From contig CM035807.1 in assembly GCA_020466095.1 (NCBI GenBank), forward strand, positions 62,067,812 through 62,131,811: 64,000 nt of DNA. Reading direction: 5' to 3'. A program made the translations under genes and the position numbers. The stretch's first letter is position 1. The number at the start of each line of letters is the position of its first letter. Shown piece after piece: positions 6,080 through 46,969 of the stretch. The stretch comes from Chlorops oryzae (Eukaryota; Arthropoda; Insecta; Diptera; Chloropidae). The notes beneath the pieces are model-generated. The model had not been told where the DNA came from and made no database searches. It saw only the letters and a program-made list of their open reading frames with translations.

Positions 6080-6700
6080 CTCTGATTTTGGCGAACTCTA
6101 ATTTAACAGGTTCCACAATGAGCTCTATGTCAATACGTTCATTTCAAATAAACCAAGGACGTCCTGTCATAGTTCTTAGTATTTTGTACTGTGCTCTTTA
6201 CACGATATCTATGTTTGAATTGCTTGCATTTCCATACTATTACAATTCATACATCTTTATTAGTTTTGAAACTTGGTTGTAAAGAAGTATTTAATATTCC
6301 AGTTTTAGAGGAGAGCAATTACTTGATAACCAGTGAAAGCTATTGGCTTAAAAATTCGTTTGGGTTCTCTTGGTCTGAATATGCTTGCGCCACGTTAGTC
6401 TTTTACTGAATTTAATTCCGAGGTAAGTTGCTTTCTCACATTAGGGGATGCGAATATTATTGAGGATAATGTCCAAAGAAACCTTTCTGTTGAGTGTGGA
6501 AGTGAAAAGTTGACATTTAAGCTCATTAGTTTTAATTCGCCATTTAAAAAGCCAGTCTTCTATATCGACGAGCTTTATTTGGAGCTTTGAAATTGCGATA
6601 CTTATAATCACTATCCCTTCACCTTTTGAAATCGTTGCGTTTATCTTGACGGAATTAACCCTCAGAGCGTTGAAGTGTTATTCGTGCTCTCAAGACGATA
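6080..6700 (-). pseudogene. Second jockey-clade LINE, reverse-transcriptase C-terminal fragment
   Basis: Translating the minus strand gives, in order, KLVDIEDWLFKWRIKTNELK, then ATYLGIKFSKRLTWRKHI (about 6370-6430), then YGNASNSNIDIV.RAQYKILRT (about 6150-6220). These are the standard blocks downstream of the jockey RT active site. They differ from the copy at 1000-3500, so this is a separate element. The endonuclease and N-terminal RT are missing; the sequence above 6700 runs into a hairpin MITE. The fragment is dead. Confidence 0.7.
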
Positions 6701-6771
6701 TTTCTTAATTATGCCTTGGTGCTATTTTTGTGTACTTCTTTCGACTGCATACGCGGTTATGAATCATTCGG

Positions 6772-6919
6772 CCCTATTATGATTGTCGACTACTGATAGA
6801 GAATCGAACAAGTTCCATCTTCTACAAAAATTTTTAATTTTCCACATACTAGAAAATGAAAAATTTCAGTCGACAGAACTTTTTCGATTCTCTATCAGTA
6901 GTCGACAATCATAATAGGG
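6772..6919. mobile_element. 148-bp hairpin MITE
   Basis: A perfect inverted repeat of 37 bp (6772-6808 against 6883-6919, beginning CCCTATTATGATTGTCGACT) encloses about 74 bp. Allowing one mismatch the stem extends a few bases further inward. Size, perfect termini and lack of coding capacity fit a non-autonomous DNA element. No target duplication is obvious. Confidence 0.8.
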
Positions 6920-7890
6920 GTGATTGACTTCAATTTCGAGTTTTTGTTTTGATACCGCTTTGACAAACTTGTAAATGCTACTCCCAAAAACCGCTGATGC
7001 AGCAAATATAATATGATTCGAACTTGTTAAAAAGTTCAGCTTGGAAAATTGTGGATACCTGATGTATGCGTTTATATTGTAGTTTTTTATCGACCAGTGA
7101 ATCTATATTGATTGCCGACTCTCCCCCTTTTAACGGAGTTGCGAGCATCGTGACTGTGAAATGTTTTTGCCGAACACTTCGCTCTTTTAATACGAGACGT
7201 TCGGACGGCTGCGTTTTATGCGATGTACTGGTTTACATTTTTGATAACAGTGTGACATCTTGGTGCAGGAAGTTGTTGTTGGGCTAGTGAGATGGTTGCC
7301 TTATGATGCTTCCTGGGTTTTAATGTTGATGGGCCATGTTAATGTGTACCAGAGCAGGTGCCGAAGTATATTGAAAAATATTATCCGTCTAATTTATAAG
7401 CTACCATTCTTTGCTTATGTCTTCAAACCAACAAAAGTTTCTTTAACTAATTATTCAAAGTTTTGGAAAACCATTCTTTGGTTAAAACCAAAATACAAAA
7501 TTGTACAACATAATTGTGGATTGTGAACATAATTGTTTTGAATATTCATATTTTTTTTTTTGCTCAATTTTTTTTTTTTTAGTTCTAATATATATAGTGA
7601 TTTATTTGTTCTTCTCAAGCTTTTATACAACCAAAGGCAAAAATTACAAATATAGTCTTATTATATTCTAACCTCTACCTTCATGATGAATCTGAGTCCC
7701 TCCACCGTTGTGCTATATTATGTTATTTCGTCTTTTCAAAAATAATTTCCCTTATATTTTATGTGCAAATTTTCATTGAAAATATATTTTGTCCGCTAAC
7801 CTTAAGACAAAAAATCTTTCCTCTAAATTCTACCTTTTCGTTTGTTCGTTTCTTGGCTCTGATTAATGATTTCAATATTTAAGTCAAAAT
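6920..7890. other. Unassigned, with a PPT-like tract
   Basis: No gene was recognised. 'ctcccccttttaacggagttgc' near 7126 resembles 'ctcccccttttaaaggagtcgc' near 53531. On the minus strand both read as a purine-rich tract such as precedes a 3' LTR, so remnants of a common LTR element are possible. Confidence 0.3.
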
Positions 7891-7897
7891 TTTTCTT

Positions 7898-8597
7898 TCA
7901 GTCAATGATCTCTTTTTGATCCTCTGATATTTCCTTCCAATCTCTCATTACTGCCCCTATTATTTCTCTGGATAAATTGATTTGCCTCTCGTTAAAAATT
8001 TTTTCATCTGGGTTGTACCCCCTTCCTGCTTCCATTGACTCAAAAAGTTTTCTGCAAATCTTAGTGTAAACAGCCCGCAACCAATAGTATTATTCTGCTG
8101 CCGAGAGTTAGGCTATACCCAAATTTCCTGAGAAAAGCTTATGTCTTTTGTTATTTCTCTAACTCTTTCGAAAACAATTTCATATTTGCACAGATTTCTA
8201 ACTTGCTGTGTGGCTTGAGAGAATCCAATAGGTGCGTGTGATTTGCTTTTTCTACTAGTAACATCCAATGATTACTCTCGCATATTGGAAAAATGAATGT
8301 TTAAATTCAGTTCATATCAATGCATTTTATCAATTGCTTTATTCGGTGTTCGCCTATTGCCTAGTTGGTTGCTTCCCTTGCCGCTTTCATACTTTGGTAG
8401 GCAAAGGAACTGATCACGTGCACTTCTTTCTGAATGGAAAAATGCAAACCCAACAGCCAGTTCATAAAACCATCGATATGCACACTATCTAACCACCGGT
8501 AATCAATTACCCTGCTGTAATTATCCTGTGTTATAACAGTCGATCTATTTCCCATTTTGTATGTATTGATTTGTTTTTCGGCCATGTCGGTGGTCAT
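7898..8597 (-). pseudogene. Ulp1/SENP-type (C48) cysteine protease domain, frameshifted
   Basis: C48 enzymes cleave SUMO-like modifiers. The minus-strand translation in three frames gives the family blocks in order. These are VIDYRWLDSVHIDGFMNWLL (start near 8510), a mid block SFAYQSMKAAREATN, then NHWMLLVEKANHTHLLDSL with the catalytic His at about 8268 and the Asp soon after. SRQQNNTIGCGLFTLRFAEN then carries the expected Gln and nucleophile Cys at about 8065-8100, followed by a charged C-terminal tail (7898-8000). Four catalytic-site residues (His, Asp, Gln, Cys) are thus preserved, but at least two frameshifts and several stops break the frame. No introns or neighbours link it to a host locus. 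It may derive from a mobile element that carries a Ulp1 domain or be a dispersed gene copy. Confidence 0.6.
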
Positions 8598-9130: not shown

Positions 9131-9424
9131 TCAAACACTCTCCTTTCTTTTTAGCTTAGCCCCCAGTTCCTGTTTTATTTCTACTCTTACTGATTTTCTG
9201 TTAATAATTACATAAAGGGCTACTACACAAATTATGATATTTATAAGCAGTGTACGACTAATACCATACGACATGATTTTTTGGAACTTTATCTCTTTTA
9301 TGTTGGGACTATTCTCGAAACTATTTACTACTATGTCCTCGAATATTACCTGTTTGTTTGAAATGGTGTTGCCCCTTTTATTTTCCGGATAAAAATATTT
9401 GCTTTCCATTACACAGGTATACAA
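9131..9424 (-). pseudogene. Errantivirus env, C-terminal transmembrane part
   Basis: A 97-codon open stretch ends with a hydrophobic anchor (TLLINIIICVVALYVIIN) and a short basic cytoplasmic tail (RKSVRVEIKQELGAKLKRKESV). This is the usual end of an insect retrovirus envelope glycoprotein. It is cut from the rest of env (11113-12500) by the 1.69-kb palindrome. Position, orientation and the membrane anchor support the call; the sequence itself is not distinctive. Confidence 0.6.
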
Positions 9425-9426
9425 GG

Positions 9427-11112
9427 TTTTGGACCAGAGAAACTGGATAGCGACCCTATAGGAATTTTTTGTGCAGATTCCGAATCTGGTACCCGTTTTT
9501 CTCTATCACGTCAAGTTTTTGAGAAATCGTTAAATAACGGTTTTTGACATTTTTACCTATAGTCTATGTCAATAATGAGGTCGTAGACCCTATATGCCTT
9601 AACCAATTTCAAAGTTTTTGGTACTCATATGAAAGAGGAATGACAACGCAACATATCCTTTATACACAAATTTGGAATTGATTCAGTAACTTGGAAGCTA
9701 TAGGGCAAAAAACGCGATGCTGATTTCCAATTTTTAGCGATTTTGTTTAAAAACTTGAAATTCAAATGGTTATAATTTCCGAACCAAGGCTGGTATTCCA
9801 GGTCTTAATACTTTGAATGAAAGAACAATCAATTGAAAAAGTTTTGAGCCTAAAACAAAAAAAATCCGTTGTGTCGTTCTAATTTTATGATGATTTTCGC
9901 TGAAAATGACAAAAACGAATTTTTATTTTTGGTATATTCTTCGCTCGTTCATATGCATATTTCAGTTCGAATTGTGTATGTTGGTAAAACTGGCTTAAAA
10001 AACATAAAACTTAAATTCTATTTTAAACCTATCTTTAAAGCTAAAACCAATTTAAACTTTAAAAATGAACAGAATTTGAACTGAGCCTTTTGTATTGTTT
10101 ACTATCTGTTTCGCGTATAAGGGACCAGCAATAGTCACTCAACATTCCTTCATCCCAAAAGCCCTTATAATTTTTTTCAATCCTCTGTAAAATCCTACAT
10201 AAAAATAGTTGGAGGACTCTTGAAAAATTATCGAAAAATGGGAGTTCGGATGTCACTAAAAATACATTTTCTCCACTCACATTTGGATTTCTTCCCCGAA
10301 AACTTGGGCAAAACTAGCGACGAACAAGGAGAGCGCATTCACCAGGACCTACAGAGGATTGAAAAAAATTATAATGGCTTTTGGGATGAAGGAATGTTGA
10401 GTGACTATTGCTGGTCCCTTATACGCGAAACAGATAGTAAGCAATACAAAAGGCTCAGTTCAAATTCTGTTCATTTTTAAAGTTTAAATTGGTTTTAGCT
10501 TTAATGATAGGTTTAAAATAGAATTTAAGTTTTATGTTTTTTAAGCCAGTTTTACCAACATACACAATTCGAACTGAAATATACATATGAACGAGCGAAG
10601 AATATACCAAAAATAAAAATTCGTTTTTGTCATTTTCAGCGAAAATCATCATAAAATTAGAACGACACAACGGATTTTTTTTGTTTTAGGCTCAAAACTT
10701 TTTCAATTGATTGTTCTTTCATTCAAAGTATTAAGACCTGGAATACCAGCCTTGGTTCGGAAATTATAACCATTTGAATTTCAAGTTTTTAAACAAAATC
10801 GCTAAAAATTGGAAATCAGCATCGCGTTTTTTGCCCTATAGCTTCCAAGTTACTGAATCAATTCCAAATTTGTGTATAAAGGATATGTTGTGTTGTCATT
10901 CCTCTTTCATATGAGTACCAAAAACTTTGAAATCGGTTAAGGCATATAGGGTCTACGACCTCATTATTGACATAGACTATAGGTAAAAATGTCAAAAACC
11001 GTTATTTAACGATTTCTCAAAAACTTGACGTGATAGAGAAAAACTGGTACCAGATTCGGAATCAGCACGAAAAATTCCTATAGGGTCGCTATCCAGTTTT
11101 TCTGGTCCAAAA
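9427..11112. repeat. 1.69-kb near-perfect palindrome (foldback insertion in env)
   Basis: Arms 9427-10189 and 10350-11112, each 763 bp, are reverse complements with only scattered single-base differences; the loop is 10190-10349 (160 bp). Outer termini read TTTTGGACCAGA at the left and TCTGGTCCAAAA at the right. The element interrupts env of the errantivirus. Loop and right arm encode the ORF at 10220-10480, and the left arm repeats its last 45 or so codons in inverted form. A transcript through it would fold into one long duplex. No target duplication was found. Confidence 0.9.
10220..10480 (+). CDS. C-terminal piece of an uncharacterised repeat-associated protein
   Basis: 86 codons. From residue 11 it reads MSLKIHFLHSHLDFFPENLG, then DEQGERIHQDLQRIEKNY, then a WDEGMLSDYCWSL block. 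I recognise this arrangement as the C-terminal region of an uncharacterised protein seen repeatedly in arthropod and other invertebrate genomes. The name and function are unknown to me. The first ATG gives a longer frame (MKNYRKMGV..) whose extra residues may not be natural. The segment HFLHSHLDFF lies in the loop of the palindrome. From about LQRIEKNY onward the coding lies in the arm and is duplicated inversely at 10087-10189. No upstream exons are present, so this is a transduced fragment. Confidence 0.5.
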   Translation: MKNYRKMGVRMSLKIHFLHSHLDFFPENLGKTSDEQGERIHQDLQRIEKNYNGFWDEGMLSDYCWSLIRETDSKQYKRLSSNSVHF

Positions 11113-12500
11113 GTTGGCCTTTATTTGTAAACTTGTGTTATTGAATTCGCATTGAAGAACTCTTCTTTTCTTATCTTTATACTGCAGTTTGTAAAAGTTA
11201 TAAGGGCGTTATTTTCTATGGTCAAATTTCGTTTGTCGCAAGTTTGTTCCAACTTTATTTTCTTAGCGTTTTTAAACAAAATTTTACCTTCATCAACATA
11301 TTGCGCAAACGTTTTATTTCTTAAAATTAAATAACAGCAATGGCGACTTCTTTTTAACTCTTTTAAAATTGCGTTATCTTGATATGTAAAAAATGTACTG
11401 TTGACTTGTACCTGTTGAGGTTATTAATTCATAATCAGCCATTATTTCGAAATATTTATTATTTGGTATTGATGCTATTAAATTTACTTCTGTTTTCAGT
11501 AACGTTTTGGGTAATGTAATTACTATTATAATCGAGCCCTTGGCATGTGATAATATTCCTACACGCACAAATTTTAATTTAAAAAATCAATTTCGAAATT
11601 TTCTACTTCTTCTGAGGTTTAAATGATTGGGTGTATTAAACGATGTTTTGCAGCTGCAATATTGTCCTGTATTAGGTTTATCTTTACTTCAATGCTTTGC
11701 AGCTTAAAAATTCATTGAACAATATGCGCTTCACTATGTCCATGTAACTCTTATCCAATTTATTTATAGAATATCTATCTTTGTGTATAGCATTTCTTAT
11801 AATGCCCAAAGTCTGGTTAAAGTAAGTATTTATACTTATTTTTTCATTGAGGCCCCCTATAGCATTGTGGCTATTTTCTGTCACTATCTGAAGGTGCTCT
11901 TTGAATTCCTGCCTGCCTGATTGTCCATATTTCCAAACAACCATTTTGATGCGGTCCCGCTGCATCCATTAGTCCCCTTATAAAACGCCTCTGCTCAGAC
12001 GGGGTTATGGGGTTATGGATTTTAGTTTTGTTCTTATATTTTCGATTTCATGGATTAACAACTTTTTGTTGTATATTTCTACCTGATTCATGAAAATTTC
12101 TATTGAGTCTACCATGTCCGCTATTTCTTTTGGATGAATAATATGTAAGATTGTGTATGAAGCCACTACAATTTATGTGTCTTGTATGGGAATTTCTACA
12201 AAACCCTTTTGTTCGGTAATCGGTGTTGTTAACAAGTAACTCCCGCCCATTGACAACAACGAAAAACGCAATGCACAAGACCGAATTCAATTTATGTTCA
12301 GTTAGATCGGTTAATCGTTTTAAATTTCTTCTGCTTATTCTTATTATTCCTTAAATACAATTTGGTAAGTTGTGAATGCGTTTTAACGTGTCATAGTGGT
12401 TATGCTTCGATGAATTCAGCTTTATTTTATTGATGCTATTATTTTCAGAAGTTAAATCAACTTGAATTCTGGGGTTGTTCAAAATATTCATGTCTGTGAA
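11113..12500 (-). pseudogene. Errantivirus env, surface/fusion part, broken
   Basis: The minus-strand translation shows a basic cleavage-like stretch SEQRRFIRG (near 11970-11995). A hydrophobic fusion-peptide segment follows with the block SKWLFGNMDNQAG (near 11920-11955), characteristic of errantivirus envelope proteins, then heptad-type sequence (HLQIVTENSHNAIGGLNEKI, near 11850-11910). A frameshift falls between the cleavage site and the downstream part. Stops interrupt the N-terminal surface domain between 12050 and 12500. The C-terminal anchor lies beyond the palindrome at 9131-9424. This is an old, non-functional copy. Confidence 0.65.
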
Positions 12501-12879
12501 ATATAAAAATAATTTTCGAGATATGTGGGTTTTAAAAGTTTCGATAGGGCATTCTTATTTAAACATCGCCTTAAGATGTTAAGAAGAAATTCCTAGTCAT
12601 ACTAAAGTTTAAAAACAGTAAGACCTCACCAAACGTGATAAAAATCTTAATTTTTCGATAAATTTTTTACATTAAAGAACTCTTTACGGCACTCTAAAAT
12701 TGTTATTGAATTTTTTGTTTAGCGGATTCGTTCTTAAAAATAAAATTTGACTACCGCTTATTTTGATTTTATATTCTGATTTACGCTTTAAACAACAACA
12801 AAAATTTAAAAAAAACCATTTCCCACTGTTGGTAATTTCCAAGTGTATTTTTACGACGGAAATCTGAGTCTAATTATGA
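12501..12879. other. Unassigned stretch between env and PTP segment
   Basis: AT-rich, with many stops in all frames on the element strand. I could not say whether it is decayed env, untranslated sequence brought along with the phosphatase, or both. Confidence 0.3.
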
Positions 12880-13600
12880 TTACTATTTGCATACTGTATT
12901 AATGTTCTGTAAAAGAATATGTAGTGATTTGTGCTACTTACAGAATATGCTCTTTGTGTTCAAATTTTTTTAAACTAATTCCGGAATTTCTTTTTCCATT
13001 CCTAATGTCAAATGAGTAAGTGCGATAAGTAATACCGTCCGATGCTGGCGCTACAATGTACTACAGCTAATGAATTTTTCAGTTTGACTTGTTGCTGAAT
13101 TTCGTCCCAAAATCTTAGCAGTGTACTTGGCTTGGGCGTGCCATTGTTGGGCTTCGTTCAAAATTGCCAGTGCAAGATTTTGCGTAAATTCCCATTGTTC
13201 AAATTTTTTATTTCTAGTTTACTTGATACAAAGTCCTCTTCTGAAACTTTCTTAGCTGTTTTTGTCTCAAATTCATTGCATCTAAAAATTTCTCTCTCGT
13301 TTTTTCCCAATACTGGTAACATTTTTCCACCCCTTCTTCTTTTATTCTTGTTAACATTATTATATTGAAACAATTCTGTTCCCATACAATACGCCAAAAA
13401 TCATTTGTTGTGTTTATTAATGGTCCCTGAGTTGCTATGTATTCTTTTGTATTTTTAACCGCACTCACGAAGTTGGCATGCATGTTATTAGAGCCGCTTT
13501 CAGTTGCGTTTATGAGTTTTACTCTGCTGTGATCGAGGCATGGTACGTTAGCGCATCTGTTTTTATCTTTATTTTTCTTTCAAATTGTTTATTTTCCCCT
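12880..13600 (-). pseudogene. Protein tyrosine phosphatase domain inside the errantivirus
   Basis: Classical PTPs hydrolyse phosphotyrosine. Read from 13600 downward, the minus strand gives the conserved PTP blocks in order: KNRCANVPCLDHSRVKL, then KEYIATQGPL and DFWRIVWEQN, then IIMLTRIKEEG and KCYQYW (13330-13450). Next come TPKPSTLLRFWDEIQQQ (about 13080-13135) and the P-loop VVHCSASIGR with the HC-x5-R signature (about 13034-13062). A C-terminal helix block QRAYSVSSTNHYIFFYRTLIQYA closes it (about 12890-12960). The domain is thus nearly complete, but it has frameshifts after KCYQYW and after the P-loop. The WPD loop reads KPNNG, so the general-acid Asp is lost. It begins directly after the integrase C-terminus and precedes env in the same orientation. 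Capture of a cellular or viral PTP by the retroelement is the simplest reading; insertion of a processed gene copy is the alternative. Confidence 0.75.
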
Positions 13601-13724
13601 CTAGGGGATCGTTTTACAACCAACCGATGTTCTTTCTTTAAGCCTATCTTGCCCAATTCTTTCATTGTTTCTTTGATTTTCTGTGCCGAAATTTTTAGGT
13701 CTTTTTTTATTGCACAAACTTATT

Positions 13725-14520
13725 CGTGCTTCTTCTGACGATTTTTTATTAAAGTTTTATGAAAAGCCTTTTCTCGACAATTAATTTTTAGGCCTACGTT
13801 CGTTGAAGTCGCATTGGAAATAACTTCATAAGGTCCATTCCAAGGGGGACAAATTTAGTTTTTCTATTTTGGTTTTTCAAACCAAACCTTGTCTCCTTCT
13901 ATAAAGTCTCGTGTTTTTTAATTCTTGTCATATTATTTTTTTAGCTTTTTCATTAGCGCATTTCTGATTTTTTCTTGGTAGCTCATAAGTTCGTTGGATT
14001 TGGTACTTAAAAATTTTACTATAGTCATTCGCATTGTATAATAGAGCAGGTTTCTGTTTTAGTTTGACGGGAATTTTGAAATCAAAACCGAATAAGATTC
14101 TACGTGGGGTTTGTTTCGTGGATGAATGAGCTGTGTTGTTATGCACGTGCATTGCATGGTGCAGCAATTCGTTCGAGTAAGTTCCGTCTCCGTTAACAAA
14201 ATTTCGAAGGTATTCTACCAATTTATGATGACTTCTTTCTAATCAGCCATTCGCTTCGGGGTACTTTGTAGAAGTTTATTACTTCTTTACGCCTAAAATT
14301 TTGCAAACTTCTTTAAAAAGTATGGATGTTAAATTAGTACCATTGTCGGTTTCCAATACTTTAGGGATGTTAAATTTGGAAATTATTTTTTTGACAAATG
14401 TTCGCGCCACAGTTGAAGCCTCCGCATCTGGAATTGACGTGATCGGGTGTGGGCCAACTATGTCCATGTAAACCTTATCGAGTGGTCGATGGGGTATCTC
14501 CGTGATGGCCATAGGGCTTT
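13725..14520 (-). pseudogene. Errantivirus integrase, broken
   Basis: Integrase joins element cDNA to host DNA. The core shows PLDKVYMDIVGPHP with the first catalytic Asp (about 14460-14490) and VLETDNGTNL with the second (about 14320-14350). After one stop comes YPEANG.LERSHHKLVEYL with the Glu (about 14215-14260). The ORF at 13928-14221 continues with HAMHVHNNTAHSSTKQTP. The C-terminal domain IEGDKVWFEKPK and GPYEVISNATSTNVGLKING-like block is at about 13740-13915. All three D,D,E residues are visible. At least two stops and a frameshift break the frame. Confidence 0.75.
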
Positions 14521-15200
14521 AGTCAATTATTGAGCTTTTATTTTTTTGGTAGAGTTTACATGTATCTATATATGCTTTAATTTGGCGTTGCATTCCCTCC
14601 CATTTATATTGACTGCGTATTCTTAAACACGTCTTAAAGAGACCTTAATGCCCTGCAATTGGGATGTCATGCAAAATCTTTAAAAACTTTTGAATTTCAC
14701 CCTGATCTAAAAAAAAAAGCATACGTGTCTTCGCCTTCGACGTTTTGAAGTTTTTTATTTAGTGGGTTTAATTCTGCTTCCTCTAAAGTTGTTGTTTGTG
14801 ATCTGGTATCAATGTTTATTTTATTTTTTAAGGGCGTTATTCTGCTTAAGGCGTCTGCATTTAAATTTTTCTTCCCTGGCTTATAACAAATGTCAAAATC
14901 ATATTCTAAAAGTTTCAGTCAAAAATCTTGTATCCTGGTCCTTCAAATTCACTATTCCTTTTAATCGTTTGTGGTCTGTGAAGATTTTGAAATGTTTTCC
15001 TCAAAGATATGTCCTAAAATTATTGACTGCCCAAACTATTGCTAGAAATTCTTTTTCTATTGTTGAGTAACGCCATTCGGTGGCACTAAGCGCTCTACTA
15101 GCGTTGGAATTTGGGAAGGTCTTGTCCTGGAGCATCTTGAGATAAGACGGCTCCTAGAGTTTCATTACTAGCATTTGTAGTTAAAATGAATGGTGTCTCT
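14521..15200 (-). pseudogene. Errantivirus RNase H and linker, heavily decayed
   Basis: Just downstream of RT the block PPILQYPD..TPFILTTNASN.TLGAVLSQ can be read at about 15110-15215. The catalytic Asp of the usual TTDAS motif is Asn here. Most of the rest (connection domain and zinc-binding HHCC part of integrase) is too decayed for firm boundaries. Stops occur in all frames. Confidence 0.55.
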
Positions 15201-16257
15201 TAATCTGGGTATTGAAGGATGGGAGGACTTGTGACTGCGTTTGGGAATTGTTCCGTTGCCTTTTGGCAGTTTGGCAGTTCTCGGTAATTTTGTCAAAGGT
15301 AGTGAGATTTGCGGCTGCTGGAATGAACTTTCTATAATAGTTAATTATACCCAGAAATGCCTGACATTGTTTAATATTTTTTGGTGTCCCAATGTCTTTC
15401 ACACACTTTACCTTTTCCGGGTCTGGCAAGACTCCCACTTGTGCACATTTGTGGCCTAAATATACCACTTCTTTTTGTAAGAAATTGCATTTTTCTGTTT
15501 GCAATTTTAAATTGTTTTTTCTCAATACTTCGAGGACTCTTCTTAAGCGCATATCATGTTCATTTTAATTTCTGGCATAGATGACGATATCATCGAGATA
15601 TACAAAACAGTCAACGCCCTGTTAAGATACTGTTCATTATGCGCTTAAACGTTGCAGCTGCCCCTGTGAGCCCGAACGGCATCCTTGGAAATTCTAAATA
15701 ACCTAAACCTGTGCTAAATGCTGTTTTCCCTTCCCATTGTCCTCCAATTGCACTTGGTGGAAGCCACTAGCCAAGTCTAGTGTTGAAAAGTAACGGCTGT
15801 AACCTAGTTGGTCCAGGATCTCGTCGGGAGTTCATTTCTTTCTTTTAGTGTTTCTGCAGCCTGTACTGCCTGGAATTATAGGGTGGGTGGTCTACTGCTG
15901 TTGATATTTGGTGCTTCAGGACTGACGCGTATGAAAGTTTATCTCCTTGCAAATGCAAAACATCTGAGTAATCCTTAAATATGCTTCGTATTGAATTTAA
16001 CTCATCTTTATTAAGACTGCTGTCTAAAGTAACCTTTTTGACTAAATGGTCATAACGAATATCATCATTCCAGCACTTATTCAACTGACTCACATTTGGG
16101 ATGTGTTATTCCGTGAAATCTTCTTCTCAATCGAATTCAAATTCAATATCTGTGTTTAATCTGATGGCACTACTATTCGTATTTAAAATTGGTACATAAC
16201 CTTTTCCATTTATGATTCTCGTAAGCGCGCTTCCTACGAAAACATTTGGTTTTATAT
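15181..16257 (-). pseudogene. Errantivirus reverse transcriptase with protease tail, broken
   Basis: Reading down from 16257: KPNVFVGSALTRIINGKGYV..ILNT is the protease/RT linker, RSIFKDYSDVLHLQGDKLSY.SVLKHQI (about 15900-16000) is the segment preceding RT, and VYLDDIVIYA near 15580 is the active site with both Asp present. Then come RLRRVLEVLRKNNLKLQTEKC and YLGHKCAQVGVLPDPEKV (15181-15552), and QAFLGIINYYRKFIP. Stops between 15550 and 15850 interrupt the fingers/palm region. The DINE-like repeat is inserted directly upstream of the linker (16258), separating it from gag and the protease core. Confidence 0.8.
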
Positions 16258-17339: not shown

Positions 17340-19410
17340 TTTACTTCGAGTCTTTTTGCATATATTGCTATTATTCTTGCTTGACATATATTTTCTATCG
17401 TTGACGTCTATAATGTTATTACCCCTTCCTCTTTCGTCGAGTTCATCAAAAAAAATCTTGTTTAATTCTAGGTCCTTTAAATGCATTGTATCCTAAAATT
17501 ATATTGTTTCTTCTTTTTTGTCTCTTTTTACATGCGTCCTTTTTGTAACTAGATAAGGCCTTTCATTTTCGAACGTTTTGAGGGCTTTCCGGTCTTTAGG
17601 CCTTGACCGGGTCGCTGAGAGATTCCTTTCCTATTATCTTGTTGCTGTAAGTTACAAAATCTCGTTATATGCCCATATTTCGAGCACTTAGAACATTGCC
17701 TATTTATAGGCGGACGATTGTTTTCTATGCCCGTCTCACTAGACTTCTGATATACATTTTGCGTACTGAAATTCCGATTTCCTATTTCATTAAAATTTTT
17801 AGTGTTTACATTTTGAGATCTGATTGGATCAAAATGCTGTTTCGGGTTTGAATTTGGCTGCTCTAAAATTTGCCCTGAGTTATAAAATTGTTGTCTGATA
17901 TTCTGCTGATTTGGCTGCCCATTGGTGTTTTCCCGTCTACTGGTAATCTACAAAATCTATTACTTTCGTGACCTTTTGTCTTACATATATTGCAAAAAAG
18001 ATTCCTAAGCGTGCCAAAACAATTACTATATATATTGCCTCTTCTTTCACAATAAGTGCAAGTTTGTGCTTCTGAGCGTGTAAGGGGTATTCATTCTCGG
18101 CTGGCATATGTCCCGAGTATGACCGACTGACTCGCAAAGAGAACAAGCCAATCGAATGAGGGTATTTGGGGAGGCATTGACTCACAAAATTGTTGACACT
18201 AGATTTTATATTATATCCAATGTGAAGATCTTCAGACTCTTCTGCCAATTTGATTTAATCAGAAATCGGTCTACCCTTATTTGTTCCTTATTTGCATATA
18301 ATATAAGGATCCCTTACACCAAAAATTATTTTGTTTGTGGCCAGTTTTCTATATTCACTTAGTGCGGATACTGCCTCTGAGGAATTCTACGACTTATTGA
18401 TAATTTTGTCTTCCTCATTCAATAGAAACTCTCGCTCTCTCGGTATCCTGCTGCCCTGCTCCTGCTATTTGTGATCTATTTGTTTCGAGACTACCACGCT
18501 TTAAGAACTCCGTTTTTATTATGGAACAAAGCTCATACAGGCCAATAAATGCCAACTGATTAATTTTTACATAAGCTACGCCAGATAGTCTGTTTTTTTA
18601 TGCATTTTATAATGTCTCATGCATTATATGTCATGTGAAAGCTCATCTACTTGTACTGGATTATTCATGGTTATTCCTATTGAAGGCACGCTGCTTGAAA
18701 CAGAGGGTTGAGACCGAAAATTAGGTGTGTGAATGTGAGCCTCAATTATTTTTGTAGAAGGAATTGTATTTGTCACCGTCACCGGTGTAATTTTGTTTTG
18801 GGCAGGGCCTGTGCTTGTGAACGCAATAGGTGAGGATTCAATATTTCCTGTATATGTCCTTGTCGTTCTTAATTTTCGTGTCAGATTTGGAGTGGGAGAA
18901 GTGGCACAGACTGTCCTTAAGTTGGTTTTAAATTTTTGAACTTCTTGTTTCAATTAAATTACTACTTTTTTACTTGATTTTAGACTTGATTTACCCTGCT
19001 CGATCAACTCTGCTGTTTCTTTTCCTACTGCCCGTTTTAATTTTTTCCTGAGAGTGTCGTTCTGCTCTTCCGAAACTTTTATTATATTATCCTTTTCTTC
19101 GATTTGCTTTCTTAATTTCTTACAGTTTCTGTCAAGCAGTGTTATCAGTGTTTCTTCTAACTTTTTCTTTTTATCTTTTGAGACTTGACTTAAAAGACCT
19201 ACTGTATCCTTGATTTTGTTAGTGAGAAAACTTGGTTCTTAAAGTTTTGTAAATTGGACGAACATGGCTTGATCTGTAATTAGTTGCGAAATTTCTTTAT
19301 TGAAACCAACCTCCTTTACTTATTCGCACGTATCAGCTAAAATGGATTTCGCATATATTTCTGACTGATGTAGAGTCTGTCTAAGTTTTTCTAATTCCTG
19401 TTCCATAGGA
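17340..19410 (-). pseudogene. Errantivirus gag, broken
   Basis: Gag would form the capsid and bind genomic RNA. The start MEQELEKLRQTLHQSE lies at about 19404, followed by lysine/glutamate-rich coiled-coil-like sequence (19000-19350). A threonine/serine/proline-rich stretch is at 18624-18953. Nucleocapsid knuckles follow: CNICKTKGHESNRFC (about 17945-18000) and CSKCSKYGHITRFC (about 17650-17700), both C-x2-C-x4-H-x4-C type. At least three stops interrupt it. An identical start peptide is recognisable at 26602-26640, the broken second copy. Confidence 0.65.
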
Positions 19411-19535
19411 AATTTTCTAAAAAATTTTAAATATGTTAGTTAGATATGTTAGTTAAAATTCTGTACTCACCATTTTCATTCTTCCGTTTGCTAACATGTA
19501 TTCCCTCGTCAGCGATGAATCTGCTACCGTTGTCA
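19411..19535 (-). promoter_or_regulatory. Errantivirus leader with splice donor
   Basis: 'gaaaatggtgagtacag' on the minus strand (about 19460-19478) is a strong donor upstream of the gag start, as expected for the spliced env RNA. The block 'cagcgatgaatctgctaccgttg' (19511-19533) recurs at 32660-32682 in the leader of the second copy. Upstream of it the similarity ends, so the 5' LTR of this copy is missing or replaced. Confidence 0.5.
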
Positions 19536-20265
19536 ATTTTTTTTTGTTTTGTTTAAATTATCGGAGAAATATCGGGGAGCAAAAGAAGAACAGAAAGACC
19601 GCATCAAACCTTGAAGAAGAATAGGAAGAGGCATAGGAAGAAACCAACAAAGAGAATAATAGCAAGCATAGAGGAATCAGAAGAAAAAGAGTGGGAAGGA
19701 GCAGAAGAAGAGAAGAACCGGAAGACCACGTTCATCATGGAAGAAGATTAGGGAAGAAACTAGTTGTTTGGTTCCTCGCTGTCTGCGGTAGGCAGAGTTT
19801 CATAAGTTGGTTGATTTTTTTTGAGTTGATAGTTTCAACTTTTTTGGAATTTAAGATTTTAAAATTTCAAGTTTTACATTTTTAATTTAAAATTTTTAAA
19901 TTTTAAATCTTTTTATGACAATGAAATCAAAACTTTATCAACTCTGAGCTCGACTTGTGTGCTCTAAAAGTAAGCAACTATGCTCACTCGGTTGACTGGT
20001 GGAATATCTTGGTGAGTTCTTTCCTTTTAACGCTATAACTATTATTATTTTTCTTCATTTCTTTTCTTAATTGTTAATTGATCTTCTTACCATTCAATAA
20101 TTTCGTCGGTCCCTATAAAAATTGATGACATACTCAAGTTTTCTTTGTGGTTTTCAGTAAGGGATTATCGTTACCATAAGTTAAATTGTATCCCATTAAG
20201 ATTGACTTCAATAAGATCTTATTTACGGCATCGCTATTTTCTAATTCTGTTTTGGTTGATTATGG
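19536..20265. other. Purine-rich tract, then AT-rich sequence
   Basis: From about 19565 to 19755 the plus strand is almost all A and G (repeated gaagaag, aggaag). The rest is AT-rich, without recognisable genes. Confidence 0.5.
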
Positions 20266-32634: not shown

Positions 32635-33060
32635 ATAACGTTTTTCTCAATGTATTGCCAGCGATGAATCTGCTACCGTTGATTTTATTACTTATTTGTT
32701 TTTATGCTTTTGGACTCATGAATCGCACTGTTCCGTTCTATTAAAATTATTGAAAATTTTTTTTTACGGTATTAAAATTTTTGCAAAGGAGTACCGGCAG
32801 AGCACGAATAAACGTTACTCCTGGATACCTACTTCGATTTAAATACCGCATCCGCCTGCGCTGCAAGAAACATGAATGTTCGAGCTTCGGTCACCCGGGT
32901 CTGATTTTGTCAAGTTTAAAATCAAAAAAAGGGTCCGCTTTACTTAACTCTTATTTTCATATGCCACACCGCACAAACGCATAAGGATATTTTCTTAAAA
33001 ATTCTGATCCTTGACTCGAATCCAACCGAAATTAGGACGAATACCGGCTGCGCCAAAATG
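32635..33060 (-). promoter_or_regulatory. Errantivirus copy B leader and tRNA-Ser primer site
   Basis: 'ccagcgatgaatctgctaccgttg' (32659-32682) matches the leader of copy A (19511-19533). At 33044-33057 the minus strand reads TGGCGCAGCCGGTA, which is complementary to the 3' end of a serine tRNA, as used by 17.6/297/ZAM-type elements. The leader breaks at 32635 with the mag-like LTR; the next part of copy B is the gag start at 26602-26640. Confidence 0.65.
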
Positions 33061-33480
33061 TTGCGGTTATTAAGGAAAGGTATTAGTCTGGCTTCTCCAG
33101 GCTAAAACACATACTTGAATATCCAATATAAATAAAAATCAGGACACAGGAAATCCAATTCAGTCCTTTTATTATACTATTTATGGTTACAATTACAGTG
33201 TTTTGATACTACTCTATCTCCTATTTTATGCGAAAGGACTTCCATAATTCCCTATCTATCAATTAAGTCTACGCTCAGCTGTCGTGGCCCTTGGGTGAGT
33301 ACGTGCACCGGAGTTAAGACTTTGAATACATGATCATGAATCGTCCTGTCACAATTGTTGCTTCAATTTTATAAGAAAAAAAGTGCTTAGGCTGCACTCT
33401 CTCGCCAAGTCCAGCATATTTTCTTATTGATAAATCGACTATTGCCCAATATCTCTGTTGGCTATAGCTTCCTATTTCAG
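33061..33480 (-). repeat. 5' LTR of errantivirus copy B (far end not defined)
   Basis: Adjoins the primer site three bases away and begins TGTTGCGGTTATTAAGG on the plus strand. On the element strand an AATAAA polyadenylation signal lies at about 33162, consistent with R/U5. The distal end could not be fixed because no second LTR is available to compare. Confidence 0.5.
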
Positions 33481-33719
33481 CTGGTGTTGACGTAGGTCGT
33501 CGTTCTCATAATTGTTGACCAACTTCTGCACTCAAGTTCCAATTTCTGTTTTGGTGACGATATTGCGACATCGTCTTCGGTCGTTGCATTTCTTCTATTC
33601 GCTTTTTCCCTTAATTTGCTCGTCTTGCAAAAACGGTTGACTCTTTCTGTTGATTTGTGTACGCTAGGTAACACAGTGAGTACTCGTATGTTGTAACTCA
33701 CAGCATGTATTTTTTTTAT

Positions 33720-37992: not shown

Positions 37993-39033
37993 ATATGACA
38001 ATCTTATTCCGGCTTACTTAACTGCCCTTATCCCCAGCTACACTAAATTCCACACTTTGTCGTCCGGGCTCGTAAGTAGGTTCGACAAAGTTAAGATCTA
38101 ATTGTTCACTTTTCGATTAAAAACCGCAAGTCCTCTTCCATAGATCGAAGCTTCGCTTAAAAAGATTAATATTGCTGATCGAGCAATATTGGATATTGTT
38201 TCTGCATCAGCTTATTTTCGATCTTCCCCTGCCGGTATGCCTACGCTGCACTTGTTGATGTTGTTTTCGTTTTAGCAGCGGCTAGTCTCTTGCTACGCGT
38301 TTCGCTGCGCTGGCAGGCCAGACGCTGAGCGTTTAAGTTGCTTAAAGGGGATTTGTTGCCCCTTTTTGGTGAATTGTTCCAATGCCATCTTCTAGTAGAA
38401 TTTACTTAATTATACCTGTTTCTTAGGCTTTCTGTAAGCTCGTGGATTTAATATTGCGTGAATGGCCACAATGCGTCGATGATTTAATAAAGTTTTTAGT
38501 TTCTACTAATCTCAGGCGCATGGTCCTTACACTCGTCGCACGTTGTCTCGTAAATGTGCTGGGTATATGTATATAAATATATTTTTTTTAATTTTAACCA
38601 AAGAAAAAAAAATTTTTTAATTTTTTGGTTTTGTTTTTTTTTTTATTGAATTTTTTTGATTTTGGTTTTTTGAAATTTTTTGTTTGTTTATACATTGAAA
38701 GAACATTCCTTCTGCGCTCTGAAGAGTTTCTTAAGTTTTCGGATGGTTTCTCTTCGTTTTATAGGGTGTGCGTCATGGATAGTTAATTGATTTTCCACTT
38801 TGAATTTCCCTTTTTGAATACAGAAATATATCACGCATACCCCTCCGGAAAGCAGTAAAAAAGCGGTGCCGCTTACTCCTTAGGGAATGTTTTGGTGAGA
38901 AGTTAGATCTTAAATTCGTTCTCTGTTTTTAAAATTCTTGGTATTAATTTCTTGGAAAAAAAAATTTTCGGTCATCGTCATTCATTACGCCGAACAGCCA
39001 ATTAGATGCTTTACCAATTGCACTGATTAACCC
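37993..39033. other. Unassigned, LTR remainder candidate then AT-rich
   Basis: The first part may continue the LTR broken by the TIR element. A short inverted repeat 'aatattg.tgatcgagcaatatt' is at 38168-38192. 38570-38700 is T-rich low complexity. No gene was seen. Confidence 0.35.
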
Positions 39034-39041
39034 GTGTCGGT

Positions 39042-40113
39042 TAGGGGTGACATAGTGTTGTATGGAGATTCTTAGTAACAAGTTTTCGATACGCTGTTAC
39101 CTCTTATTTTGTGAGGTTTGGTATAAAAATGCATGTGCCAAAAAATGGGGAGGGTGGGGTGTCAGCAAATGGCTCCTCATCGGGGTCAAAGATGGGTTAA
39201 AACGAGAAAAAATCCATGAAATGCTTTATAACTGTCCCAGAGTCGCTCCTAGAGGGGTAAAATATTAGACCGACTCCCATTATTTTTTTTCCCAAATATT
39301 TTCTCTGAACAAATATGCCACCTATCTCTCCTCCTTAAGGGGGCTCCCATACAAAAAAAATATTTTTATAAATTTTACCCCCACCGTCGTAATTTGCCCC
39401 AGAGTGCCCCTAGAGGAGCCAAATATATGACCGACCCCTATCAACCTTGTCCCCCTAACATTTTTTTTCAACATACTGATACCCTATCTCCCCTCCTTAG
39501 GGGGTCACCCGTACAAAATTACCTTAATTTTATCACAGTTTCATACAAAATGGCTGTCATTACAGTCAAATCCCTCCTAGAAGGATGATATATATGACCG
39601 AACCCCATTATTTTTTTACCCCAATTATTTTCTTCAAACACACCCACCTTCTATCTCCCCTCCTTAGGGGGGTCCCAATACAAAAATAGGCTTAAATTAA
39701 AGAAATATGCCTCACGAACTTCAATCTATAATATAGATGCCGTAGGAACAAGAACGAGCATGTTCAGTATATATATTCTAAAAATTTACAAAATTACCTT
39801 TTAAACCAGCCTAATATGCAGAATATTGAATTCGTTTTTGGTATGTTTTAATATGTTATAATTATTACCTTTTTGTAAAACTGAATTTTGGGTTCCATCC
39901 CCTAACTGGCCAAATAATGACCCTAGTAGAAAAAAATAAATTTTCGATTTAAATGCCGCAAACCTCAATATATGACGAGTTCTTTGAGACTATAACAATT
40001 AAAATCGGTAAGTGGTTTCTATTCATAAAATTAATTCAAAACAAATATTTTTTGAAACGCATTATTCACTGTTTTTACGTTCGTTTCTTGAGTCTTTGCA
40101 TGCGTACAGACCA
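39042..40113 (+). repeat. Left arm of the foldback element
   Basis: Pairs in inverted orientation with 50343-50774 and 52281-52919. It contains three tandem units of about 165 bp, each with 'cctagagg.g..aaatat.tgaccga.ccc' and 'cctatctcccctccttaggggg' (near 39249, 39411 and 39576). Reading frames in it are shadows with no recognisable protein. Confidence 0.85.
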
Positions 40114-40890
40114 GAGAACTGCTTTGAGTGTGCTCGAGCATGTTCGAACACCCTTGCTGAAAATTCAGAACACGTCGAATATCAAACTCCGCAGCTATGT
40201 GTTCGATCGAGTTGCACACGCGAAATCTTATTTTCGAGTTCGAGCACCTAACTCGAATTTTGTTGTACGTGTATTCAGACTCTCATTGCAGGTTTGTACG
40301 CAAACTGATCCGAAAAAACCACTCAAACTCGAGTTCAACTCGAGTTCTATGGGTATAGAAACAGAACAAGGGGAAAATATCAGAGTCAAATGCGGAGAAT
40401 AAAGGTGTATGTGCGTATGTACATATGTGGGCCTGCTCAAATATGACTAATTTACACCAAAGTTCCGTGTGCGTTGCAGCTCTCTCATACATATTTTTCT
40501 GTAGAAAAACGTAGATAACACACTCGAGATGCACTCGAGTTTATTGGGTATGCACGACTTAAAAACACTCGAAACCGAACAGAGTGTATGAAAAGAACTC
40601 GAGTTTAGCGCACAACATGCTCGTGTTGAACTCATGCGCACACGAGACATTACGATTGTTGTACTAAAGGGTTTGATTCAAACCAAATCTAATCCACACA
40701 CTCGAGTGTACACAAACACTACCCAGTGGCAAATAAGGGGAAGTCCTCTACTAACCCGGTAATGCCCAGAACTATTTTTTTCCAGATTTTGTTAAAAATA
40801 AGTCCATTTATGTATTTTGGTCTTCTGAGCACGAAAATGAAGTTAATTTTTCATTTGATGTTGACACTTTTCCGGAAAATGCGAAAAACT
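40114..40890. other. Foldback interior left of the array; CTCGAG-rich
   Basis: No gene. The palindrome CTCGAG occurs about seven times between 40130 and 40710. 'aacccggtaatgcccagaac' at about 40753 also starts the second and third array units (43809, 46833). Confidence 0.5.
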
Positions 40891-40893
40891 AGC

Positions 40894-43520
40894 GTTACCA
40901 TATGGTAACCGTGGGTCGTGTAGGGTACTGGTTTTTTTTAAGTAAATTCTCGGTTTATTTTTGTTGATATCAAAATAAAAAAATGCAATTAAGTGTTTTA
41001 TAAAAAAATAAGGCATTGATATTCGATTTATACAAAAAAGGGGAATTTTTGGACAATAAAAGTTAGTTTGTATAGTATAGCTATTTAAGTTTTTGTGTGA
41101 TAGTTCGCAAAGCAATTGACGCAAAGTCCAACGTCACATTTTTTGCAAGCTGTACGCCCATTTACTTTGCAACGATCCCCAGCACAACGCCTACGATTTG
41201 ATGGGACCACAAAATGTCCCACCTGATCATACCGGAGGGTCTGTTCCACTCGGCCAGATTGTTGGGCGTATCTATGGCTTGACATTGGACCAGAAGATTT
41301 GGCTTTGGTACCGTGGTGCTTGCAGTAGTAAACTGCCAATTGTCTTCGAAATTCAAGCTGTGGCATTTTCGGCTGTAATTTTCGATGAAGCTGCCAAGCA
41401 TTTTGAATACATGCATCAACTAGCCAAGTGAAAATGCTCGACCACCACTTTTTCCCTTTATACGCGATTCGATATTGGGCCACATTTTGGTCGAAACGAT
41501 CGACTCCACACATATATTTGTTATACTCCGTGATGGCGCAAGGACGGGGTACTTTTATCTTGCTTCTGCTCTCCTTCGAATATCGCTGCGCCATTGATTT
41601 GGGATTTTCACCAAAGGTGGTGGACAATATACACACAATATTATTGTCCTTCCACTTCACCAAGCGAATGCCCGTGCGCTTTACCATTATCGATTCGGAA
41701 TGACCTCTTTGCATAGTTAATAAATGTTTTTTATGTGCCAGTGGACAGCTTGCTGGAATACGATTTTCGCGAATGGTTCCTGTTGCATTATACCCGCATG
41801 ATTTTAAATACTCCAATAAAGGATAACTCGTAAAAAGATTGTCAAAATAAAACGAAAAAGGCAATGCTTTCAACGTATCGGGAAAATCATCGATCATGCT
41901 CACCAAAGGAGCGGCACATTTTCCAAATTTCGCTTCATACTCCTTGTTTGAACGAGGATTCTTTCCTTGATATATTTCAAAGTTAACCATATAGCCTGAT
42001 GGAGTACAAAGGGACCAAACTTTGAAGCCAAATCGCAACGGTTTTCCTTTTATATACTGCTTGCATCCATGCTTACCAAAATAAGCGATCATGCTTTCAT
42101 CATATGAGAGATTTTGCTCGGCATGAAAATTTTCAATCATTTTGGCTTTGAGATGGTCGGTGATTGGACGTAATTTCCACATCTTATCGGGATTAAGGCT
42201 TTCTCGAGAAGATGTTTTAGAGTTGTCTTCGAAGTGAAGAAATTGTAGGATTTCTTGAAATCTACTTCGACGCATGGTGTTGCAAACGAGATTGTTGCGA
42301 ATGTCTTCATCTTGGCTCCACAAATTTCTAAAGCAAGCGTGATAGTTGTAGCCTGTTATAATTAATATGCCGATAAATGCCCGAAGCTCTTCGACTGTTA
42401 TATTGGGATTAGGCTTATTCATTCCGATCGCATACAGTGCAGATTGTTCACTAATGTGAGTTAGAAGATCGTTATCAAAAAACTTTTCAAACTGCTGATG
42501 AGGCAGAATACCACGGCAGTCGGCGTAATTTTCATCAGGAAATATTGGTATAAGAGATGGAGCATCGTCTTTTACCCATTCGAATGTTGTTGCTTTATTT
42601 CCTGGAGGCAATTCAATATTTGATGCTTTTGGCTGCACCTTACGTAGTCGTTTTTTACACGGTGAACTTGTTTTTGTTGATGTTGATGTTTGTTCGTCTC
42701 GAAAGATATCCTCAAGATATTCGGGTAAATCATTGAAATCATTTTGAGCTAAAAATTTAATAAGTAAATAATTAAAGTATGCATGAGCTAAAATTGGTAA
42801 CCAACATACCTCTTAGTTCATCTTCCTCAACGTCGAAAGTTTGAATAGTCGACCACTACAAAACACAATTTCGCAGCCGCTTTTTAGTTGAGCGGGGCAA
42901 ACATTGTCTGGTATACCACCAGATTCCTCTTCCGCATCATCCTCACCAGATATATTGCCATCGTTTGGTGGCTCGATGTATATTGCGGTTTGTACGTCAA
43001 CCACATCATCGCCACTACTTAAAGTTTCAAGATAATCTTATACTTGTTGCAATGATAAACCACTAAAAACGGCAAAATTTAAAAAGGAATTCAAATTATA
43101 CACTTTCAAAAAAATGTGGTCAAAATGCATTTTTTGACCTTCAAAACAAAATAAAAAACATGGTTTGAATTGCTGGATGAAAAATAGATAAATTATTATA
43201 AATGAAATGACTAAATGTCTTCCAATTTGAAATAAAAAGCTAAATATGTCTAAACATCTACCGCGGTCGGCTACAACTTGATCGTCGATCGCAGCCGTAA
43301 GAACAGTTTTTCGTTTCATGCCATATGTACATATGTACATTGTACATATGCTTGTTTTATTTACATTTAACTGTGCACGTGCGCGTTGTCGCAGTTTAGT
43401 ATTTTTCATTTCTTAGAAAATAGCTAAACACAGAAATGCTTTAAAAAGAAAAAAAAATGGTTTTTTTCCTTATCCAAAACCAGTACCCTACACGACCCAC
43501 GGATACCATATGGTAACGAC
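40894..43520 (-). mobile_element. piggyBac-like element, array copy 1
   Basis: Inverted ends around 'ttaccatatggtaaccgtgggtcgtgtagggtactgg' (left) and 'ccagtaccctacacgacccacggataccatatggtaa' (right). Transposase lies on the minus strand. Copies 2 and 3 follow at about 3.03-kb spacing with the same orientation. True outer ends (TTAA) were not identified because the flanks are part of the tandem unit. Confidence 0.75.
41085..43064 (-). pseudogene. piggyBac transposase copy 1: DDD intact, N-terminal exon broken
   Basis: Mobilises the element at TTAA. The long exon (41085-42748) keeps all three catalytic Asp: in YDESMIAYFGKHG, in FYFDNLFTSYPLLEYLK, and in YNKYMCGVDRFDQNV. It also keeps a full Cys-rich C-terminal domain (RCAGDRCKVNGRTACKKCDVGLCVNCF). 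A 61-bp intron (42749-42809, GTATGT..TTTTAG) separates it from the acidic N-terminal exon, which has IYIEPPNDGNISGEDDAEEESGGIPDN. That exon has a TAA where the other copies have Leu (SLQQV.DYL) and a one-base deletion at GRLFKL (GRHIQTF in the others). The catalytic core is therefore sound but the protein cannot be made from the usual start. Confidence 0.85.
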
Positions 43521-43552
43521 GCGAGAAAAATTTAAAAAACGAACGTGAAAAG

Positions 43553-43797
43553 TACTATGGGATGAGGAGGGAGCACGAGTGTTAAGCTCGATTTTATGAC
43601 CGTCTCCGATTTTGATGAAACTTGCAGAATATTTTTGGCTCCTAAATCAAAAGCCTTTGCGCAAAGTTTTATCAAATTCTGAGATAAAAATTTTGACACG
43701 AAAATTTCATTTCAGGTACTATGGGATGAGGAGGGAGCACGAGTGTCAAGCTCGATTTTATGACCGTCTCCGATTTTGATGAAACTATCAGAATATT
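43553..43797. repeat. 163-bp tandem duplication in the array spacer
   Basis: 'actatgggatgaggagggagcacgagtgt.aagctcg' starts at 43553 and again at 43716, each followed by 'gattttatgaccgtctccga'. A mutated single version recurs in the next spacer at about 46740-46815. Confidence 0.8.
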
Positions 43798-43950
43798 CTT
43801 GGCCCCTTAACCCGGTAATGCCCAGAACTATTTTTTTTCTAGATTTTGTTAAAAATAAGTCCATTTATGTATTTTGATCTTCTGAGCACGAAAATGAAGT
43901 TAATTTTTCATTTGATGTTGACACTTTTCCGGAAAATGCGAAAAACTAGC

Positions 43951-46553: not shown

Positions 46554-46969
46554 GACGCGAGAAAAATTTAAAAAACGAAACGTGAAAAGTCATTTTGTGG
46601 AAACGAGGTTACACTCTAATTTTATCGACGCCCAGTTGGGTAAACTTTGCGAATTTTTGGTCTCCTAAACAAAGCCTTTGCGCAAAGTTTGGATTTTTCC
46701 AAAGGTGTGGAAAAAAGACACACAATATATTTCATTTCAGGTCACTATGCGAATGCAGGAGGGAGCACGAGTGTCAAGCTCGATTTTATGACCGTCTCCG
46801 ATTTTGATGAAACTATTATATTCTTGGCCCTTAACCCGGTAATGCCCAGAACTATTTTTTTTCTAGATTTTGTTAAAATAAGTCCATTTGTATTTTGATC
46901 TTCTGAGCACGAAAATGAAGTTAATTTTTCATTTGATGTTGACACTTTTCCGGAAAATGGGAAAAACAC

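Follow-up and report, generated by a model that had tools for sequence, protein, structure and literature searches.

A protein tyrosine phosphatase domain at the C-terminus of Pol in a family of Ty3/gypsy retroviruses of Chlorops oryzae

In this study, we analysed a stretch of 64,000 nucleotides from the fly Chlorops oryzae (assembly GCA_020466095.1, contig CM035807.1, positions 62,067,812 to 62,131,811), hereafter called the window. A fragment on its minus strand belongs to a decayed member of a large family of insect-type Ty3/gypsy retroviruses whose Pol polyprotein carries a protein tyrosine phosphatase (PTP) domain. We consider it fairly probable from the sequences that this dead copy stems from an element whose Pol acquired a MEG2-like PTP at its C-terminus in the distant past, and that selection has since preserved the domain as a working enzyme. 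The observations in support are the in-frame architecture, the conserved catalytic residues, the excess of silent over amino-acid changes, the presence of recent insertions, and the occurrence of the same fusion in two database proteins (P0123 and P0004).

In the copies with an open frame, the reading frame passes through the integrase, its GPY/F module and the motif KGKEK, continues for 58–72 amino acids and then enters the PTP domain, which is followed by a stop. A preliminary description of the window had placed the PTP as a separate gene between pol and env; it is instead the C-terminal domain of Pol, and therefore no separate spliced PTP message would be needed. The accompanying proposal that a gypsy-type retrovirus lineage had acquired a PTP is supported. 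The genome (442 Mb in 1044 contigs, the longest of 173, 118 and 97 Mb) was searched with the PF00102 profile, where 150 of 596 candidates were scored; 150 of the 151 matches were listed (148–294 bits, with a cut-off of 20.9), of which 70 were read and 80 were not. An element-type PTP was present in 65 of the 70 loci, and in 64 of these 65 the same strand carried an integrase part upstream, compared with none of the five remaining loci (L001, L002, L051, L052 and L055), which resemble ordinary host PTP genes or exons. The exception is L059, in which no integrase was seen within the 250 upstream bases covered. Stop-to-stop frames of more than 1500 amino acids were found in about 30 of the 150 listed matches, and the integrase C-terminus was in frame with the PTP within 90 residues in 50 of 64 loci, the others having a shift, stop or break in between. 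By sequence, 64 element-type loci were sorted into nine lineages, A to I, leaving L046, an A-like copy of greater age; the eight lineage representatives have 47–57% identity to the PTP of lineage A. Pairs of long terminal repeats (LTRs), with TG..CA ends, were detected in three of the four copies fetched with both ends. The LTRs of L009 (650 bp, provirus of 11.2 kb) are 100% identical and those of L029 (497 bp, provirus of 10.2 kb) 99.8% identical, each pair with a 4-bp target duplication, and those of L035 (at least 247 bp) are 100% identical and end at the piece border, where a duplication is unreadable; no LTR pair was found in the examined pieces of L016. Some of the PTP-bearing copies are recently inserted.

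The window copy is a decayed member of this family, assigned to lineage A (88% over 91 residues). All PTP blocks named in the preliminary description are present on the minus strand at 12880–13600, but the PTP part starts near 13719, beyond that range. Two pieces match PF00102 in the correct profile order, namely 13217–13579 with 114.7 bits (E-value in Table 1) and 13011–13157 with 15.2 bits (E 0.017), the latter below the cut-off. For the C-terminal block (12873–12959), no Pfam match was obtained and the best PDB match was PTPN9 (E 0.2). The N-terminal piece (13522–13719) had no PDB match, and its weak Pfam matches to unrelated families (E 0.03–0.06, under cut-off) were taken as chance. Compared with the complete relative L005, the stretch 13573–13301 is 88% and the stretch 13364–12876 58% alike; using an open-frame relative as query, the domain extended from 13576 to 12876, with a lead-in (68%) reaching 13776. 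One match, at 13776–13582, joins the tail of the integrase to the PTP lead-in within a single frame, with a stop inside. Since the PTP blocks lie in more than one frame and contain stops, the copy is broken; HC(X5)R is still readable, and the WPD region is degraded. The integrase and the env that had been reported upstream and downstream of the PTP, respectively, were both recovered, the former just upstream with its rve match at 14282–14518 (under cut-off) and the latter in the same orientation (Table 1). Nested insertions, which amount to about 13 kb of unrelated sequence, split the 5' LTR from the rest of the element. Because of this distance, self-comparison near the element showed no LTRs, and the 5' LTR was found using the LTR of a relative; the 3' LTR was not found by comparison with L009. 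The pol region may reach further upstream to about 16105, as judged by eye only.

The PTP of the family is conserved in its catalytic motifs. HC(X5)R[ST] was found in all 64 sorted loci and WxD in 60 of them (two of these read past a stop), and both motifs without a stop before residue 220 were found in 58 loci. When L046, which has lost the His of the HC motif, is included, HC(X5)R is present in 64 of 65 loci, and the active-site Cys and Arg are likewise kept in 64 of 65. Across the lineage representatives, the active-site Cys, Arg and the WPD-loop Asp are invariant together with other residues, two host PTPs included. Nonsynonymous relative to synonymous differences (pN/pS) within lineages amounted to 0.21–0.47 in the PTP (61 stop-free copies, with 1–3 pairs only in some lineages) and 0.18–0.37 in the integrase region (24 copies). 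Between lineages, pN was 0.23–0.41 and pS was 0.61–0.87, which is near saturation. In lineages A, C, D, E and F, variants found in at least two copies had pN/pS values of 0.10–0.29 and private variants values of 0.31–0.42, the latter being above the former in each lineage, with small counts in both classes. The shared variants probably arose during element replication.

The same fusion was also detected elsewhere. The first match of an integrase–PTP query from one copy was P0123 (JGI; 1622 amino acids on a 7035-bp contig), with 42% identity over 97% of the query. Its Pfam annotation lists RVT_1, RNase H, an integrase zinc finger, rve and PF00102 in one chain, and it is here that reverse transcriptase, RNase H and integrase are seen in one Pol, the RVT_1 and rve pieces of the window being under cut-off. 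The remaining 119 listed matches of this query have PF00102 and no rve in their Pfam annotation and look like cellular PTPs. In addition, P0004 (ENA; 362 amino acids on a 1312-bp contig) joins an integrase C-terminus to a PTP that is 41–48% identical to those of the lineages. Both proteins are distant from all lineages and are therefore not copies of them, and their sequences suggest that the fusion is probably not peculiar to this genome. A protein search with the window PTP piece alone gave no match, perhaps owing to length limits, and that with the PTP of an open copy gave 1878 proteins, of which the best 120 were listed. In IMG/VR, no relative was found with the window piece (12 pattern matches, 0 confirmed), with the PTP of L005, or with the integrase C-terminus (22 pattern matches, 0 confirmed). 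A further IMG/VR search using alignment A1 gave 20 pattern matches, including one weak PTP-like match of 29% (contig L087).

As to the origin of the domain, the sequences are most simply read as one old capture from a MEG2-like PTP. By single-domain score, PTPN9/MEG2 ranks first in the PDB for the domain of lineage A (182 bits), and the first eleven PDB matches of the P0004 structure model (pLDDT 84) are all PTPN9, with TM values of 0.86–0.89 on the target. In three PTP trees, which were built without the genome's own MEG2, the element PTPs lie outside the MEG2 rows, and in one of them the 17 element rows form a single group (84/67) next to a nematode PTP, with the PTP of P0123 on a long branch. 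Three PTPN9-like rows (Cotesia, Cydia and an unnamed source), which we take to be bracovirus-type, are sister to the element and nematode group in one tree (94/83), stand apart from the element group in the two others, and never fall inside it. Thus, of the likeness to MEG2-type and bracovirus PTPs noted earlier from the window, MEG2 stands as the nearest single-domain relative, whereas membership in the MEG2 clade does not, and the bracovirus rows are sister in one tree and apart in two. The nearest tree row of a LAR-like host PTP of this genome is from the fly Megaselia.

Several observations weigh against a reading in which a MEG2-like PTP was captured once and has since remained an active enzyme. 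Summed scores are higher for tandem LAR-type chains than for PTPN9 (the better LAR domain has 166 bits), the middle piece of the window best matches PTPN2 (E 0.0009), and the top protein match is a fish protein (37%), followed by P0004 and then by many PTPN9 proteins; the P0004 model was built from an alignment rich in PTPN9. When more nematode PTPs were added, the element rows were not resolved against them (85/85 for both together), and a single origin of the element PTPs is not firmly supported by the value of 84/67. The copies compared above were picked by PTP score, which biases pN downward, and the 80 unread matches lie outside the sample. Lineage F has HCAAGIGRTC and WAD in place of HCSAGIGRTG and WPD, and its activity may differ given these variant motifs. 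In an integrase search of the genome (146 scored of 5413 candidates), some matches were 78–82% alike with a Pol frame of only about 1325–1367 amino acids. Five of these were fetched as PTP-less candidates, L082 (lineage J) and L083–L086 (lineage K); in all five, Pol ends soon after the GPY/F module and no PTP match was obtained at E 0.01. An env follows downstream in L082, L084 and L085 (50–65%), and no env was seen in the 3 kb examined of L083 and L086. The PTP is not essential and is dispensable in some settings, since lineages J and K live without it.

These PTP-less lineages also bear on whether the PTP was captured several times, or exchanged as a module by recombination, rather than captured once and inherited. 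In the integrase tree, J and K group with the PTP lineages of their own genome, excluding the PTP-bearing P0123 (89/95), and an approximately unbiased (AU) test rejected the PTP-bearing rows as one integrase clade (p-AU 0.0154); the branches within the own-genome group are largely not resolved, and the rows of G, H and I have only 32–45 residues. Lineages C and E are close in integrase (pS 0.54) and apart in PTP (pS 0.83), and D and E pair in PTP, a disagreement which suggests recombination between these lineages. The long branch of the P0123 PTP, and the fact that the element rows do not form one resolved group when more nematode PTPs are included, would also fit repeated capture or exchange. 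However, all 17 element rows stand together in one tree, the fusion point is alike, and three changes suffice on the integrase tree, e.g. one gain and two losses. We hold repeated capture or exchange to be less likely than not.

The window copy, broken in PTP, pol and env, could by itself be taken for a private insertion, in which the processed transcript of a host PTP had landed in one old provirus without any meaning for the virus. This explanation, which had been named in the preliminary description, is refuted by the other copies with the same fusion and retains virtually no probability: the element-type PTP is present in 65 of 70 read matches from nine divergent lineages, 64 of them with an integrase upstream, and recurs in P0123 and P0004, and the five PTP-less relatives are separate lineages. 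Moreover, 12000–14000 contains only one run of eight or more A or T, which consists of T when read in the PTP sense. A different proposal is that the PTP serves as a binding or targeting module, tethering the complex from behind the GPY/F part of integrase to phosphotyrosine proteins or chromatin in the manner of a chromodomain. Chromodomains sit behind the integrase C-terminus in chromoviruses, and the PTP sits just behind the integrase C-terminus as well; the motif drift in lineage F, which is also seen in lineage G, would be consistent with such a role. A pure binder would be expected to lose its catalytic residues, but the active-site Cys and Arg are kept in nearly all loci and the Asp of WxD in 60 of 64, which makes this proposal improbable.

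If the PTP is a working enzyme, as we favor, its function may be proposed as follows. The Pol of retroelements is made at a low ratio to Gag, packaged, and then cut by the protease, and therefore a domain fused to Pol should enter the particle. The phosphatase would be made at the low dose of Pol and would enter the particle with reverse transcriptase and integrase, where it could either stay attached to Pol or be released by the protease. It might then remove phosphate from phosphotyrosines on proteins of the host (or on Gag), either in the cell that produces the particle or in one just entered, which would assist assembly or early steps, or help to evade host signalling. An intracellular function appears more likely than an env-tied one, since the PTP is kept in lineage F, where env is seemingly absent. 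By analogy with polydnaviruses and baculoviruses, the PTP might act in counter-defence, as a modulator of host immune signalling or behaviour. Bracovirus and baculovirus PTPs are listed among virulence or behaviour genes (PMC5704228, PMC3856412), and the Ulp1-type protease encoded alongside (see below) would fit a set of host-modifying enzymes; on the other hand, inherited proviruses may gain little from immune evasion, and we regard this specific role as doubtful.

Besides the PTP, the family carries other genes. The env of lineage E matches PF12259 (Baculo_F type, E 1.4e-7), and an env homologue was found in 26 of 52 pieces searched, many of which are too short to reach env. In lineage F, a weak env match (30–35%) was found in 2 of 17 pieces, and L029 has only about 1.8 kb between the PTP stop and the 3' LTR; this lineage seems to have lost env and yet keeps the PTP. 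Loci of lineage F such as L029 and L037 have an intact PTP and no convincing env. An open reading frame (ORF) for an Ulp1-type C48 protease (PF02902; E 9.2e-14 in L009, 9.6e-14 in L084 and 4.4e-16 in L085; 52–60 bits against a cut-off of 20.7), with a His, Asp, Cys triad readable by eye, directly follows the PTP in six lineage A copies (L007, L008, L009, L011, L012 and L013). No env was found in the 1.5 kb after the PTP of these six copies, nor in L009 up to its 3' LTR. The same ORF is located after env in the 3' pieces of one C copy, one E copy and the window (8597–7762), and before env in lineage K. Between PTP and env, the spacer of 15 of the 70 loci (lineages A, D and E) holds another ORF in antisense orientation, and many loci do not extend far enough to reveal it. 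This antisense ORF has 40–50% identity between lineages (E 4e-38 to 2e-60) with differences mostly at third positions and a pN/pS of 0.46–0.52, which are signs of purifying selection. A relative is found in the PTP-less lineage J (31%, E 1.7e-14) and perhaps in lineage C (23%); a Pfam search with the ORF gave nothing above the cut-off and a PDB search nothing below E 0.026, and the ORF was not matched anywhere in the window. Taken together, we tentatively suggest that a clade of insect retroviruses may package its own PTP and encode an Ulp1-type protease and an antisense protein as a host-modification toolkit, made or delivered with Pol, which would be old enough to occur in other hosts and whose cassettes would have been swapped between lineages.

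Table 1 Features of the decayed provirus in the window, and accessory ORFs of its relatives (positions refer to the window unless a locus is named).
Feature	Position	Strand	Evidence
5' LTR	33059..33705	-	75.6% to 650-bp LTR of L009
Leader directly after 5' LTR	32641..33058	-	83.9% to stretch after L009 LTR
gag region, broken	17543..19561	-	DNA 81–89% to L009 5' piece; protein pieces 67–87%
pol, reverse transcriptase to integrase, broken	13740..15564	-	RVT_1 E 1.6e-4 and rve E 4.2e-6, both under cut-off; 71% to L005 over 288 amino acids
PTP domain and lead-in, broken	12873..13719	-	PF00102 E 6.8e-33; 88%/58% to L005; C-terminal part of Pol in open-frame relatives
env, broken	11154..12274	-	42–70% to env of lineages A, D, E
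Hairpin element inside env	9427..11112		Two 763-nt arms, 99% alike, 160 nt apart
Probable env C-terminus past hairpin insert	9134..9426	-	Suggested by open-frame reading only; no Pfam match
Ulp1-type (C48) protease ORF, broken	7762..8597	-	74% and 48% to L009 ORF
3' region up to LTR border	6614..7670	-	68–81% to stretch before 3' LTR of L009
Ulp1-type ORFs of relatives	L009:2627-3514; L084:840-1688; L085:999-1838; L076:967-1779; L078:2075-2869		
Antisense ORF, about 190–260 amino acids, between PTP/Pol end and env	L005:2427-3098; L035:3084-3872; L017:472-1218; L082:1662-2228	-; -; +; -	

Other parts of the window hold further mobile sequences. An isolated env fragment lies at 38965–39093 on the minus strand, and tandem units of about 3 kb (94.7–96% alike), whose ORFs were labelled piggyBac-transposase-like by eye, occupy 40752–49585. 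At 55131–57420 on the minus strand, there is a second gypsy-type Pol without PTP, and relatives of it with frames of 1219–1253 amino acids recur in the genome. This second element was considered as a PTP-less sister of the family and rejected, as its integrase is 32% alike and no env motif was found in it; it can be used as outgroup only.

To the best of our knowledge, retroviruses are not known to encode a phosphatase. In this family, the replication polyprotein includes an enzyme of a type that reverses tyrosine signalling, and this enzyme appears to have been under selection through deep divergence, which makes it testable whether a retroelement needs or shapes the tyrosine phosphorylation of its host. 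One genome offers a natural experiment for this, with lineages that have the PTP, lineages without it, and a lineage with the PTP that is apparently env-less. Our full-text searches listed no paper describing an LTR element with a PTP, although a mention in the survey of Chary and Hayashi 2025 (eLife 108449) is possible; the word 'phosphatase' is absent from the main texts of PMC13172572 and PMC12992720.

Compared with known systems, the family shares with errantiviruses (Metaviridae, Ty3/gypsy with env) the LTRs with TG..CA ends, the 4-bp duplications, the Pol with reverse transcriptase, RNase H and integrase, the Baculo_F-type env and an insect host, and differs from them in the PTP after the integrase, the additional Ulp1-type and antisense ORFs, and a lineage F without recognisable env. 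Chromoviruses are Ty3/gypsy elements with a C-terminal chromodomain, and they likewise have an extra domain fused behind the integrase C-terminus; theirs is a small chromatin reader, whereas here it is a phosphatase domain of about 240 residues. Cellular MEG2/PTPN9 is the closest single-domain PDB sequence and, according to the predicted structure of P0004, the closest fold, although the element PTPs are fused to integrase and lie outside the MEG2 clade. Bracoviruses and baculoviruses are DNA viruses, and their presumed bracovirus-type rows in our trees (n = 3) are never inside the element group. They resemble the family in their use of a viral PTP in insects, and it is for them, not for errantiviruses, that PTPs are described in passages of PMC5704228 and PMC3856412. 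Gypsy elements of the orchid Phalaenopsis are reported to carry an AlkB m6A demethylase as an additional ORF, called recent in the title (PMC9289625), which is similar in that a gypsy lineage fixed a captured cellular enzyme; the present case concerns another enzyme, fused to Pol and present in divergent lineages. Ginger1 DNA transposons (PMC2836005) combine a gypsy-like integrase with a further Ulp1 or OTU domain at the C-terminus, whereas in the LTR retroelement described here the Ulp1-type protease has its own ORF and the C-terminal domain is the PTP. The finding is real, general and unusual, in that a retroelement of a kind already known has a novel domain in its Pol; the anatomy is firm, and the proposed function would be that of a phosphatase acting with Pol.
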